64,000 bases of DNA from Oligoflexia bacterium (GTDB lineage: Bacteria > Bdellovibrionota > Bdellovibrionia > Bdellovibrionales > Bdellovibrionaceae), in NCBI GenBank assembly GCA_016861345.1, contig BOLD01000002.1:62001-126000 (forward strand), in the 5' to 3' direction. The notes below the pieces were generated by a model. It searched no databases. It was not told where the DNA came from and saw only the letters and a list, made by a program, of their open reading frames with translations. The position numbers and the translations under genes are program-made. Shown in pieces: positions 44,765 to 51,990 of this stretch (the first letter of the stretch is position 1; every line of letters begins with the position of its first letter).

Positions 44765-45543
44765 TGAAAAAAGTTATTATTTTAATGGGTTTTGCATTAT
44801 CTGGCTGCGCAACGATGAAGGGTTGGGTTGGACTCGACGATGAAAAACCAAAAGCAAAGGTTGCTGACCAGCCAAAAGCTGAAGTGATGATTGATGGCGA
44901 AAAAGTCGTGCGATTTTCCGAAAATCAAAATATGCCAAATGTCACCAACCGACAGTACCGTCGAATGAATCGGCAACGTATGGAAGAAGAAGCTGAACTT
45001 CATGCGGGAGCAGGCTCAATGTGGGTGATGGAAGGACAGGGAGCCTATCTTTTCACCCAGAACAAAACCAGAAGAGAAGGTGATATTCTCAATGTTAAAG
45101 TTGAAGGCCCAGCCCAAAAGCAAATTGAAACAAAAGTGAGTGTGATCAAAAAGCTTCTCAAGCAATTAGAAGATGAAGAAAAGCGTGCACGCGAGTTTGA
45201 GCAGATGAAAAATGATCCAAAACTTGCTGAAGGACAACAGCCTGCACCTGGACCAGATGGAAAAACTCCGGCTCCTGTTGCGCAAAGAGCTCCTGCAGAG
45301 GCTGCAAAAGAAGAAAAGGATGAACCAATTCAGATCGATACTGTGTCTACAAGGATAGTGGAGCGTCAGCCAGATGGAAATTATCGTATCAAAGGGCAAC
45401 AACCATTTATGATTGGAAAACGTGAGTATAAAGTTTTGGTTACAGGAATGATTCGCCCTGAGGACTTTAATGATGAAGGTGTTAGTTCCAACAAAATCTT
45501 GGATCCTCAGTATGATGTTGTGAGCCTAAGGAGAAAAGAATAA
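44761..45543 (+). CDS. flgH: Flagellar L-ring protein FlgH
   Basis: Lipobox LMGFALSGC; NKTRREGDILNVKVEG; C-terminal VLVTGMIRPEDFNDEGVSSNKILDPQYDVV. Confidence 0.9.
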   Translation: MMKKVIILMGFALSGCATMKGWVGLDDEKPKAKVADQPKAEVMIDGEKVVRFSENQNMPNVTNRQYRRMNRQRMEEEAELHAGAGSMWVMEGQGAYLFTQNKTRREGDILNVKVEGPAQKQIETKVSVIKKLLKQLEDEEKRAREFEQMKNDPKLAEGQQPAPGPDGKTPAPVAQRAPAEAAKEEKDEPIQIDTVSTRIVERQPDGNYRIKGQQPFMIGKREYKVLVTGMIRPEDFNDEGVSSNKILDPQYDVVSLRRKE

Positions 45544-46547
45544 TGAAAGCACTTTTGATAACCACAATCAGTCTTTTCACAACGGTCTGTTTTGGCGCTC
45601 GCCTAAAAGATATTTCAAGCATTCGTGGTGTACGAGAAAATCAGCTTATTGGATATGGAATTGTTGTTGGTCTTAAGGGCACAGGGGATGGTAAGGCAGA
45701 ATTCACAAGCAAATCCATTGCCCGGATGCTCGATAAACTTGGTGTCAAGCTTGATAGCCAACAAATTGATAGTAAAAATGCGGCTGCAGTTATTGTGACG
45801 GCAAATCTACCGGCATTTGGAAAAGCGGGTAACCCATTGGACATCACGGTCAGCGCACTGGGCGAGGCCTCAAGTTTAGAAGGCGGAACTCTTTTGCAAA
45901 CTCCTCTTCGCGCGGCTAACGAGCAGGTCTATGCTGTTGCTCAGGGTTCTGTGTTGCTTGGAGGATCTGGGAAGGATTCTTTCACGACTGTAGGAAGAAT
46001 ACCCAATGGCGCTATTATTGAAAAAGATGTCTCGAGTGATTTTTCCTCAAGAAAAATGTTCCGGTTAACCTTGCACAATCCAGATTTTATCACTGCAGCT
46101 CGAACGGTTTTGACCATCAATAAAGAACTGGGTGGCCAGTATGCCAGCGCAAAGGATGCGGGCACAATTGATATCGTGACTCCATATTCCTACGAGAATA
46201 GAGGTGTTGAATTGCTGGCAACGATCGAGGCTATTGATATTAATCCTGACTCAAAAGCAAAGGTTGTTGTGAATGAAAAAACAGGAACTGTGATTATTGG
46301 TGACAAGGTGAAGATTTCAAAAGTGGCTATCGCTCACGGAAATCTTGCAGTGAAAGTCACCAGTAAATCAGGTGCCGCATCAAAGTCAGGTGAAGAAGAA
46401 AAAGTTGCAGTCATTGATTCAGGAGTCTCCGTTGGGGATCTAGTCCAGGCTTTGAACAAGCTGGGCGTCTCTCCAAAAGACCTGATAACACTACTTCAGT
46501 CCATAAAGGCAGCTGGAGCTTTGCACGGGGAACTCGAAATATTATGA
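45543..46547 (+). CDS. flgI: Flagellar P-ring protein FlgI
   Basis: RLKDISSIRGVRENQLIGYGIVVGLKGTGDG...VVVNEKTGTVIIGDKVKISKVAIAHGNLAVKV. Confidence 0.95.
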   Translation: MKALLITTISLFTTVCFGARLKDISSIRGVRENQLIGYGIVVGLKGTGDGKAEFTSKSIARMLDKLGVKLDSQQIDSKNAAAVIVTANLPAFGKAGNPLDITVSALGEASSLEGGTLLQTPLRAANEQVYAVAQGSVLLGGSGKDSFTTVGRIPNGAIIEKDVSSDFSSRKMFRLTLHNPDFITAARTVLTINKELGGQYASAKDAGTIDIVTPYSYENRGVELLATIEAIDINPDSKAKVVVNEKTGTVIIGDKVKISKVAIAHGNLAVKVTSKSGAASKSGEEEKVAVIDSGVSVGDLVQALNKLGVSPKDLITLLQSIKAAGALHGELEIL

Positions 46548-46562
46548 AAAATGACTATTGTT

Positions 46563-46589
46563 TTGACACATTATTTAATAAAATAAAAT
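46563..46589 (+). promoter_or_regulatory. Candidate sigma70-type promoter for structured RNA (TTGACA / TAAAAT, 15-nt spacer)
   Basis: TTGACA at 46563-46568, TAAAAT at 46584-46589; short spacer. Predicted TSS falls within a few nt of the first hairpin. Confidence 0.4.
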
Positions 46590-46590
46590 T

Positions 46591-46800
46591 AACACCAGTG
46601 ACAAGGATGTTGTTGGTGTTCGGGGAGGGTGAGTTAGGAATCAAGAACCAAGGACGGTTTTGGAACTCATTCAGTTTCTCGCAGGAAACAGGAGCAATAG
46701 GTCAGCAGAAGCCAAGGATTGGCGATGAAAGGCCGAAGCTTGAAAGAGAGTTAAGTGCATGGATGCACGTTGACTCTAACTCAACTCCCCACTTTTTCTC
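46591..46800 (+). ncRNA. Candidate CsrA-binding structured RNA (CsrB/RsmZ-like sponge or flgJ leader)
   Basis: Consecutive hairpins with GGA in loops: AACACCA-gtg-ACAA[GGATG]TTGT-TGGTGTT; AGAACC[AAGGAC]GGTTTT; GCCAA[GGA]TTGGC; AGAGTTAAGTGCA[TGGA]TGCACgTTGACTCT. Nine GGA motifs between 46605 and 46763. Confidence 0.5.
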
Positions 46801-46827
46801 CTCTCACAATTTAGGGATAAGCTAGCT

Positions 46828-47535
46828 ATGGCTGTTGATCCCTCGAATTTAAAAGCTCCTTCGCAGTACACTTCGCTTCGCAAGGTCACAACAGCTGCTG
46901 ATCAAGATAAGCGACTTCGCGAAGTTGCCGATCTTTATGAAAAGCAATTCATGCGCGAAATGATGAAGGCCATGCGGGGAACAGTTCAAGAAAGTGGACT
47001 CGTCAAAGTTGGCCAGGCTGAAAAAATATTTCGTGAAGAACTTGATGGCGAGCATGTGAACAACTGGAGCAAGCAAGGCGGGCTTGGTCTTTCTAAAGTT
47101 ATCTACGATCAGTTGATTGAAAAATATGGTGCTCGATTGGGGATTAAATCTCCAGAGTTAAAACCTCAGGGGCCAATTCCACTTGATGAGAAATCCCAAT
47201 TCACCGGAAGTGTGAAAACAATTCATTCTGGACCAAAAGTGAGCTATCAATTTTCAAGAGAAGAAAGTGTTGGTCCAGAGTCACTTCAGCGACCACAACT
47301 GATGGCAGTGAAAGCGCCCTGGGATGGAAGTATTTTGCAGTCCCAAAGAATTAATGCTGATGAGTACGTATTGGATATGCTCCACGATAATGGGCTGAAA
47401 AGTCAGTTCGTTTTCCGCGGTCAACCCCAGCCTGGACTGGCTCAGCGAAAAGTCCAGGGGGGCGAAACGATTGGGTTATTAAGTCCTGAGGCCAAACAAT
47501 TTTTTTGGAATATCGAACCCACTGTCTCAGAATGA
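46828..47535 (+). CDS. flgJ: FlgJ-type rod-binding protein with C-terminal degenerate M23-like region
   Basis: REVADLYEKQFMREMMKAMRGTVQESGLVKVGQAEKIFREELDGEHVNNWSKQGGLGLSKVIYDQL; C-terminus VKAPWDGSILQSQRI...LDMLHDNGLKSQFVFRGQ...GGETIGLLSPEAKQFFWNI. Confidence 0.82.
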   Translation: MAVDPSNLKAPSQYTSLRKVTTAADQDKRLREVADLYEKQFMREMMKAMRGTVQESGLVKVGQAEKIFREELDGEHVNNWSKQGGLGLSKVIYDQLIEKYGARLGIKSPELKPQGPIPLDEKSQFTGSVKTIHSGPKVSYQFSREESVGPESLQRPQLMAVKAPWDGSILQSQRINADEYVLDMLHDNGLKSQFVFRGQPQPGLAQRKVQGGETIGLLSPEAKQFFWNIEPTVSE

Positions 47536-47592
47536 TTTGGTCAAATGGTCTCATTGTGATACACTAATAAGAAAGAAACATGGAGGAATCCC

Positions 47593-47943
47593 ATGAAGAT
47601 TACACATAATAAAGTTGGTCGAAACCTGAATATGACGGATACAGCAGGTAAGGCTGACAAAGCTTCTAAGGCTGGAAAAGTTGATGATGCTTCTGGGGCG
47701 AAAGCTTCTGCTCTTGCTTCGCTGGGTGAGACGGATTCTTCTTCAAAAGTAAAACTTTCTGAACGTGCTCAGGATATGAAAAAAGCAAAAGAGATTGCAA
47801 AATCTGCTCCTGAAGTTCGAGCGGATCGAGTCGCTGAATTGCAAAAGCTTATTGACCAAGGACAATACAAAGTCAGCGGTAAAGATATTGCTGATAAAAT
47901 GGTCGATGAGGAGCTTCAGTGGGCCGGAGCCACGAGCGAGTAA
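47593..47943 (+). CDS. flgM: Anti-sigma-28 factor FlgM
   Basis: SSKVKLSERAQDMKKAKEIAKSAPEVRADRVAELQKLIDQGQYKVSGKDIADKMVDEEL. Confidence 0.92.
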   Translation: MKITHNKVGRNLNMTDTAGKADKASKAGKVDDASGAKASALASLGETDSSSKVKLSERAQDMKKAKEIAKSAPEVRADRVAELQKLIDQGQYKVSGKDIADKMVDEELQWAGATSE

Positions 47944-47978
47944 TTTGACTGGTTAACAAACTTTAAACAAGGATGGAC

Positions 47979-48503
47979 ATGGATCAGTCCAACACGAATA
48001 GACAGGAAGTCTACTTTCAACTTCTCAGCGGTTTAGATGAGCTTGTGAGGTTGTATCGTACTTTGTTGGATTTAATGGTCCGAGAGAAAGATATTCTGAT
48101 TCAGGTGGATCTCGATAAAATTCAAGAATCCAATCAAGCCAAAGAACTTCTCCTTCACAAAATTCGACAGGCAGACGCAGAGAGAGAAAAACACGCTATT
48201 GAATTAACAAAAATAATTGGCGGAGATATTCGACAGCCGCGTTTGTTGGAAATTGCAAAAAAAATGAAGTCCGACGAGGCGGTGAAATTAAAATCAGTTC
48301 ACACCGCTCTTGATCTTTTATTGAGACAAATCACAGAGCAAAATAATGAGAATGAAAAGTATGCGGCTTCAGCGCTGAATATCTTTAATGGTGCCTTGGG
48401 GGATATAAAAGACTCGCTTATTGGCAAAAAGACGTATGGTAAAAAAGGCGTGATGACTGAGGGCGCAGAAAAATCAGGTAACTTTGTGAGCAAGGAAGCG
48501 TAG
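47979..48503 (+). CDS. flgN: FlgN-like flagellar chaperone
   Basis: Small helical protein between flgM and flgK; LDELVRLYRTLLDLMVREKDILIQVDLDKIQESNQAKELLLHKIRQ. Confidence 0.82.
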   Translation: MDQSNTNRQEVYFQLLSGLDELVRLYRTLLDLMVREKDILIQVDLDKIQESNQAKELLLHKIRQADAEREKHAIELTKIIGGDIRQPRLLEIAKKMKSDEAVKLKSVHTALDLLLRQITEQNNENEKYAASALNIFNGALGDIKDSLIGKKTYGKKGVMTEGAEKSGNFVSKEA

Positions 48504-51061: not shown

Positions 51062-51292
51062 ATGCTTGTTCTTACACGGAAGTTGGGCGAGAGCATTGCG
51101 ATCGACGACCACATTAAAATCAGAGTAGTCCAAATCAAGGGCAAACAGGTCCGTTTGGGCATCGAAGCTCCAAAGGAAACGAAGATCCATCGGGAAGAAG
51201 TTTATCTTGCTATCCAGGATACAAATAAAGAGTCTGCGGCGGTGACTTCAGAGCGAACTCGTTCAATTTCCCGCATGCTCAAAGAAAAATAA
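51062..51292 (+). CDS. csrA: Carbon storage regulator CsrA
   Basis: MLVLTRKLGESIAIDDHIKIRVVQIKGKQVRLGIEAPKETKIHREEVYLAI. Confidence 0.97.
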   Translation: MLVLTRKLGESIAIDDHIKIRVVQIKGKQVRLGIEAPKETKIHREEVYLAIQDTNKESAAVTSERTRSISRMLKEK

Positions 51293-51444
51293 ACCTCACT
51301 TACGTTAAAATTCAATGCGCCGCATATATGCATTGGATCTAAGTCTAGTTTTTTTCATCAGCTACCCAGTTTTTTGTCTTGCTGTGTCCTATATTCAGGT
51401 GCATGCTTAAAATAAGGCCGAAATGTTTATTTTCGCAAACCTTA

Positions 51445-51990
51445 ATGGAGGGGCTCGTGGTCATTCAAACAACCCGTTTTGGACAGATTGAGGTTCAAAC
51501 TGAAGATCTCATACAGTTTCCGGAAGGGATCGTGGGTTTTCCTGATCTCAATACTTTTGTTCTCTTGGATGATCCAAATGATGATATTTTTGCTTGGTTG
51601 CAAAGTTGTAATGAGCCTGCGATCGCTTTCCCAGTTCTTGAGCCTGAGCTTTTTGCTGAGAATTATAAGGTTGTTCTCACGAAAAGTGATTACGAAGGTT
51701 TGAAGATGCAGAATATGGAGCGCGCTCGGCAGTTTTGTATCGTGACTATTCCGGATGATCCGACAAAAATGACGGCCAATATGAAGGCTCCGATTATTGT
51801 GAACGTTCCGCTCAGAATTGCTCGTCAGTGTGTTCTTCAGGATAATGGATTGGCAATTCGAGAGCCGATCTTTGCCAAGCTTCAGCAGCGTGTGTTCCAG
51901 AATCCAACTCAATCAATTAAATCCCAGTCTCAGGGGCTGGATGTTGCGATTCGGTTGCCTGAGTCGCAAGGCCCAGAAGTCACTGCCTAA
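51445..51990 (+). CDS. fliW: Flagellar assembly factor FliW
   Basis: TTRFGQIEVQTEDLIQFPEGIVGFPDLNTFVLLDDP..FAWLQSCNEPAIAFPVLEP; adjacent to csrA. Start refined from 51379. Confidence 0.93.
   Translation: MEGLVVIQTTRFGQIEVQTEDLIQFPEGIVGFPDLNTFVLLDDPNDDIFAWLQSCNEPAIAFPVLEPELFAENYKVVLTKSDYEGLKMQNMERARQFCIVTIPDDPTKMTANMKAPIIVNVPLRIARQCVLQDNGLAIREPIFAKLQQRVFQNPTQSIKSQSQGLDVAIRLPESQGPEVTA

Follow-up and report, generated by a model that had tools for sequence, protein, structure and literature searches.

A conserved GGA-hairpin sRNA between flgI and flgJ of Bdellovibrionales, a probable CsrA sponge

Small RNAs that antagonise CsrA have been described mainly in Gammaproteobacteria, while in other bacteria FliW is seen as their substitute; to our knowledge, sponge RNAs are thought to be absent from bacteria that use FliW instead. 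The gammaproteobacterial CsrB/CsrC and RsmX/Y/Z RNAs share with the RNA described here a short non-coding transcript, repeated GGA hairpin loops, a terminator and presumed sequestration of CsrA. The binding determinants of CsrA are RUACARGGAUGU and an ANGGAN hexaloop, and CsrB has 22 GGA motifs (PMC7652899); CsrA sites have also been found in CANGGANG hexaloops (PMC4894983). The leader of the flaA mRNA in C. jejuni is likewise an RNA antagonist of CsrA that works beside FliW in a flagellar context through GGA hexaloops (PMC4894983), and merRNA of B. bacteriovorus is another RNA of the attack phase for which a sponge role has been proposed (PMC3627812). According to a 2020 review, it "remains to be determined" whether any species uses FliW and sRNAs together (PMC7652899), and a 2026 paper notes that Geobacter still has no characterised sRNA of the CsrB/C family (PMC13407953).

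The window, a 64,000-nucleotide stretch of contig BOLD01000002.1 from a Bdellovibrio-type genome, contains flgI (45543-46547, + strand; Pfam FlgI, 5.7e-114) and flgJ, encoding a rod-binding domain (46828-47535, +; Pfam Rod-binding, 1.1e-10), separated by a gap of 280 nt. This gap holds a structured sRNA of 208 nt (46590-46797, +), located with a covariance model and alignment; its end lies in a T-run, and its start is projected by alignment from the transcription start site (TSS) mapped in B. bacteriovorus HD100, as there are no expression data from the organism of the window. Located 3' of the gap are a flgM-like gene, flagellar genes, csrA (51062-51292, +; Pfam CsrA, 5e-26, with PDB relatives including the RsmE-RNA series), whose product is the presumed ligand, and fliW (51379-51990, +; Pfam FliW, 1.9e-36), encoding the protein antagonist of CsrA.

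A single-contig genome of 3,782,950 bp, which we take from its length to be that of HD100, has a homologue of the RNA at 499,333-499,585 (+), and the coordinates of a published transcript agree with this assignment. That transcript, APsRNA1, spans 499,375-499,581 (+), 207 nt (Karunker et al., 2013, Table 2; PMC3627812). Its RPKM is 50,451 in attack phase, 16-fold above the 3,181 of growth phase, and it was listed without a FliA promoter, an assigned function, a link to CsrA or significant homology outside B. bacteriovorus (PMC3627812). Its TSS lies 5 nt after TACAAT and its end falls inside the U-run of the homologue. APsRNA1 and the window RNA are orthologous by sequence, strand and synteny, and we regard them as the same RNA. 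Because the HD100 homologue coincides with this transcript, the RNA is a separate sRNA and not only a flgJ leader; the evidence for an independent, terminated transcript thus comes from the published HD100 start and end, not from the organism of the window. The preliminary description of this DNA had left the choice between an operon-embedded Csr RNA and a CsrA-controlled flgJ leader, and the separate transcript it called for favours the former over a mere leader, with CsrA binding still inferred. The transcript was therefore already known; new are its conservation, its family and its likely function, none of which we found in the literature searched or in Rfam. No paper beyond PMC3627812 uses the name APsRNA1 in that literature. 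When the other HD100 APsRNAs were considered as further sponges, none had a similar array of GGA loops.

All the hairpins listed in the preliminary description were recovered in place. HP1 (46591-46620, +) has the loop ACAAGGAUGU, the core of the SELEX consensus RUACARGGAUGU (PMC7652899) and a putative CsrA site, on a stem of 10-11 pairs, all changed on both sides among relatives. HP2 (46647-46658, +) presents an ANGGAN hexaloop in ACC[AAGGAC]GGT; this inner hairpin stood, but the outer GTGAGTT/AACTCAT helix drawn around it proved lineage-specific. In the conserved fold, the 5' strand of that region pairs mainly with the 3' end of the RNA: GGGGAG (46622-46627) with CTCCCC (46785-46790) forms a closing stem (46622-46790, +) that is followed by a T-run (46793-46797, +) in which the HD100 3' end falls, a predicted multibranch closure resembling an intrinsic terminator. 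HP3 (46674-46689, +; GTTTCTCGCAGGAAAC) keeps its stem (91% paired) and has GCAGG in nearly all sequences, with GCAGGA half paired, so that its GGA is only partly available in a loop. HP4 (46711-46723, +; GCCAAGGATTGGC) has compensatory changes in 6/6 pairs, and HP5 (46747-46777, +), with the loop ATGGAT / AGGAT, has a core stem 96% paired. The loops thus match the known CsrA determinants, namely the ANGGAN hexaloop, RUACARGGAUGU and the CANGGANG hexaloops.

For the flgI-flgJ region, the predicted fold has an energy of -76.1 kcal/mol (z = -3.0; 1/200 shuffles). The preliminary description had pointed to nine GGA motifs, at least four of them in loops: the loop placement is exceptional, since the four GGA in hairpin loops of the 208-nt sRNA were equalled by 1/500 dinucleotide shuffles, but the count of nine is ordinary and was reached in 36/500. 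Among 1,228 tiles covering both strands of the window, the sRNA ranks first for GGA in loops. The next two tiles (three each; 47529-47736 and 47841-48048, +) flank the flgM-like gene, and ACAAGGATGGACATGG at 47967-47982 overlaps the start codon (47973) of a 176-aa gene after flgM, possibly a CsrA-repressed translation start.

Relatives have a gap of similar size with the same order of hairpins and the closing GGGGAG...CUCCCC-U-run. In a structure built by hand from 33 sequences, 91.4% of cells pair vs 81.5% in shuffles, and there are 154 double changes vs 40. With 97 sequences, 89.2% of cells are paired vs 71.2% when shuffled and 38-49% when partners are slid as a control, double changes number 824 vs 259, and 44/51 pairs have changes on both sides. 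The larger alignment was fitted to the covariance model and so leans towards its structure; compensatory changes still occur in 20/47 pairs of the first MAFFT alignment, which was folded with no structure imposed. GGA is retained in the loop of HP1 in 92/97 sequences, of HP2 in 95/97, of HP4 in 82/97 and of HP5 in 96/97, so that four loops carry A(N)GGA in 82-96 of the 97. HP1 has 89 distinct 5' arms among the 97 sequences while its loop GGA stays. Constant loop GGA on changing stems is the pattern predicted by CsrA binding, and the preliminary description had made conservation of both stems and loop GGA in relatives a check on its reading, which the RNA passes.

The same alignments bear on the idea that the structured sRNA serves another partner, by base pairing or through a different protein, with the loop GGA coincidental. 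AGAGAUC and AGGUCAGC, which are invariant and lie outside the GGA loops, are not needed by a CsrA sponge and would suit such a partner. Yet in four separate hairpins with changing stems nothing is better conserved than the loop GGA, the loops correspond to a clearly defined protein motif and CsrA occurs throughout the order; we consider this explanation quite improbable.

Of the 142 genomes of the order, 110 have a single copy of the RNA according to the covariance model; one fragmented genome gives two partial matches, at contig ends. Two copies occur in a sister order, likewise between flgI and flgJ, and beyond these no match was found among 289 genomes drawn from the phylum. No second copy was found in the window's own genome and no match in phage and viral collections. 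Copies of B. exovorus type are too divergent for the genome scan and retain the GGA hairpins. Two metagenome-assembled genomes titled Streptomyces griseus (bin-158; L190) and Rhodobacteraceae (S24.Bin137; L200) also carry the motif, and their titles are probably wrong. Judged from these alignments and searches, the RNA is an ancient covarying family of the whole order, whereas APsRNA1 had been reported without an assigned function and from B. bacteriovorus only.

Searches with the Rfam models that the preliminary description had recommended gave nothing: CsrB, CsrC, RsmX, RsmY and RsmZ have no match in the window at gathering threshold or at E<=10, the Csr/Rsm models have none in 13 relatives at E<=3, and the family is absent from Rfam 15, where relaxed thresholds give chance matches only. 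The lack of a Csr/Rsm match counts against the sponge reading. So does the complete loss of the RNA in several Pseudobdellovibrio-type genomes (L118, L119, L121, L122 and L124), in which flgI abuts flgJ, csrA is retained in all and fliW wherever tested.

The presumed partners are widespread. A csrA gene is present in 104/104 good-quality genomes of the order, and L4, R44 and N55 are kept in 30/30 CsrA proteins examined, that of the window included; L4 and R44 contact RNA (PMC7652899) and N55 contacts FliW (PMC13407953). All genomes with the RNA that were tested also have FliW. The RNA was limited, in the order search, to genomes bearing flgI, except for one with the RNA at a contig end, and non-flagellate genomes of the order keep csrA and lack the RNA, so csrA alone cannot explain its presence. 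Owing to the physical linkage of the RNA to flgI, joint loss of RNA and flagellum is weak and non-independent evidence of function. A set of small, flagellum-less genomes of the order (G101, G102, G108-G111, G125, G126, G128-G131) has more divergent CsrA, and FliW is missing in 4/5 of those tested.

The preliminary description also proposed a TTGACA/TAAAAT promoter ending before HP1. The -10 element TAAAAT (46579-46584, +) holds up: it aligns as TAnAAT in relatives and agrees with the mapped HD100 start, where TACAAT takes its place. TTGACA (46563-46568) was rejected as a sigma-70 -35 element because only 10 nt separate it from TAAAAT. In aligned promoters of relatives, the -35 region is overlapped by an imperfect dyad, TGTTTC-N5-GACACA/GAAACA, of which the window has a degenerate copy (46556-46570, +). 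The dyad sits about -36 to -21 from the TSS and is strongest in Bdellovibrio. Transcription of the gammaproteobacterial Csr sRNAs is controlled by BarA-UvrY/GacA; here a regulator of the sRNA may bind the dyad near -35, and none has been identified. In one genus (g7; L011 and L016), roughly 100-150 nt of extra, partly G-rich sequence separates flgI from the RNA promoter, and csrA is either on another contig or distant from the RNA.

A reading frame of 93 codons (46544-46825, +) also spans the gap; it begins with an ATG that overlaps the stop codon of flgI (ATGA) and terminates 2 nt 5' of flgJ. Of 90 loci, 43 have this coupled frame free of stops across the RNA, against 2 and 0 for the other two frames. 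Where the overlapping start codon is present, the frame is open in 38/56 loci, and in 5/34 where it is not, counts that ignore kinship. Open loci of Bdellovibrionaceae have flgI-to-RNA spacings of 43, 46, 55, 58, 61, 64 or 67, all 1 mod 3; where the register differs in other families, the open frame of the RNA shifts along with it. By genus, the frame that is open across the RNA coincides with the coupled frame in 23/26 (binomial p 9e-9, genera treated as independent), and in many relatives the coupled frame stays stop-free through RNA and terminator.

Such openness at loci with the overlapping start codon might indicate a small protein gene to which the RNA structure is secondary. However, substitutions are equal across codon positions (9095/9860/9719), purifying selection on the amino acids of the 93-aa ORF was not seen, the reading frame of the 3' part varies from species to species, the 93-aa frame has no Pfam match, and in HD100 the sRNA starts downstream of the start codon of this frame. 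We rejected the small-protein reading on the codon-position and frame evidence, leaving it the barest residual chance. The preliminary description had called the ORF dubious. Its amino acids are unconserved, yet the frame is kept open in relatives. As the frame is open while its codon positions change equally and its 3' frame shifts, the selected property appears, from sequence comparison, to be openness and not the peptide.

With the start codon upstream of the TSS, translation of the spacer frame is possible on the operon mRNA alone. Ribosomes re-initiating at the flgI ATGA would translate the spacer on that mRNA and, in transit, melt the hairpins and terminator, so that transcription and translation reach flgJ; the short transcript, without that start codon, would fold freely. 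Tentatively, and with somewhat more doubt than confidence, we suggest that a Csr-type sponge gene is nested in a translated frame whose protein is irrelevant, coupled ribosomes erasing its hairpins and terminator so that flgJ is made, and an internal promoter yielding a folded, terminated CsrA sponge that acts with FliW in attack phase.

The open frame through the terminator is also what one would find if the element acted mainly in cis, as a CsrA-responsive attenuator or leader in which CsrA binding or ribosome transit decides passage into flgJ and the short transcript is a by-product. The RNA lies between flgI and flgJ in every neighbourhood inspected, sister order included, a fixed place that is expected of a cis element and counts against a sponge; moreover, flagellar mRNAs are common CsrA targets, and in C. 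jejuni these include flgI (PMC4894983). Against this, the terminated 207-nt RNA has its own promoter and TSS and is highly abundant, its five GGA hairpins are spread along the RNA with none needed at the flgJ ribosome site, and the RNA can be lost while abutting flgI and flgJ stay functional-looking. A mainly cis-acting element is unlikely in our estimate, and a cis role could coexist with a sponge.

We consider it likely that the RNA is an independently transcribed sRNA that binds and sequesters CsrA dimers through four to five GGA hairpins, a functional analogue of CsrB/RsmZ. Arrays of GGA in loops, a terminated transcript and a cognate CsrA, three features of the class of CsrA-sequestering sRNAs, are all present: the conserved structure, the loop GGA, the HD100 -10 element, TSS and T-run end, the high attack-phase level and a CsrA with its RNA-binding residues are observed, and binding itself is inferred in the absence of binding, deletion or CLIP data. 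Four to five sites are few beside CsrB, and other CsrA-binding RNAs also carry few. Unlike CsrB/CsrC and RsmX/Y/Z, this sRNA matches no Rfam family, belongs to a different lineage, has a fixed place within a flagellar operon, lies in a spacer frame that is presumably translated and coexists with FliW. It also differs from the flaA leader, an mRNA leader with two GGA hexaloops, in being a separate terminated sRNA with four to five sites, and from merRNA, which contains a c-di-GMP riboswitch and has no comparable GGA-hairpin array. If CsrA binds as we infer, the sRNA would titrate it in trans and, together with FliW, would set CsrA activity in the motile attack phase. Taken together, the reading of the flgI-flgJ gap RNA given in the preliminary description is supported.

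The sRNA would thus be a concrete case, in the standard laboratory strain B. bacteriovorus HD100, of a sponge beside FliW, and it gives a likely function to an attack-phase sRNA left unexplained since 2013. The losses in Pseudobdellovibrio-type genomes are natural deletions useful for comparison, and the nested translated frame suggests a way of placing an sRNA gene and its terminator within an operon. For Bdellovibrio itself, the sRNA offers an entry to the switch between motile attack and growth.
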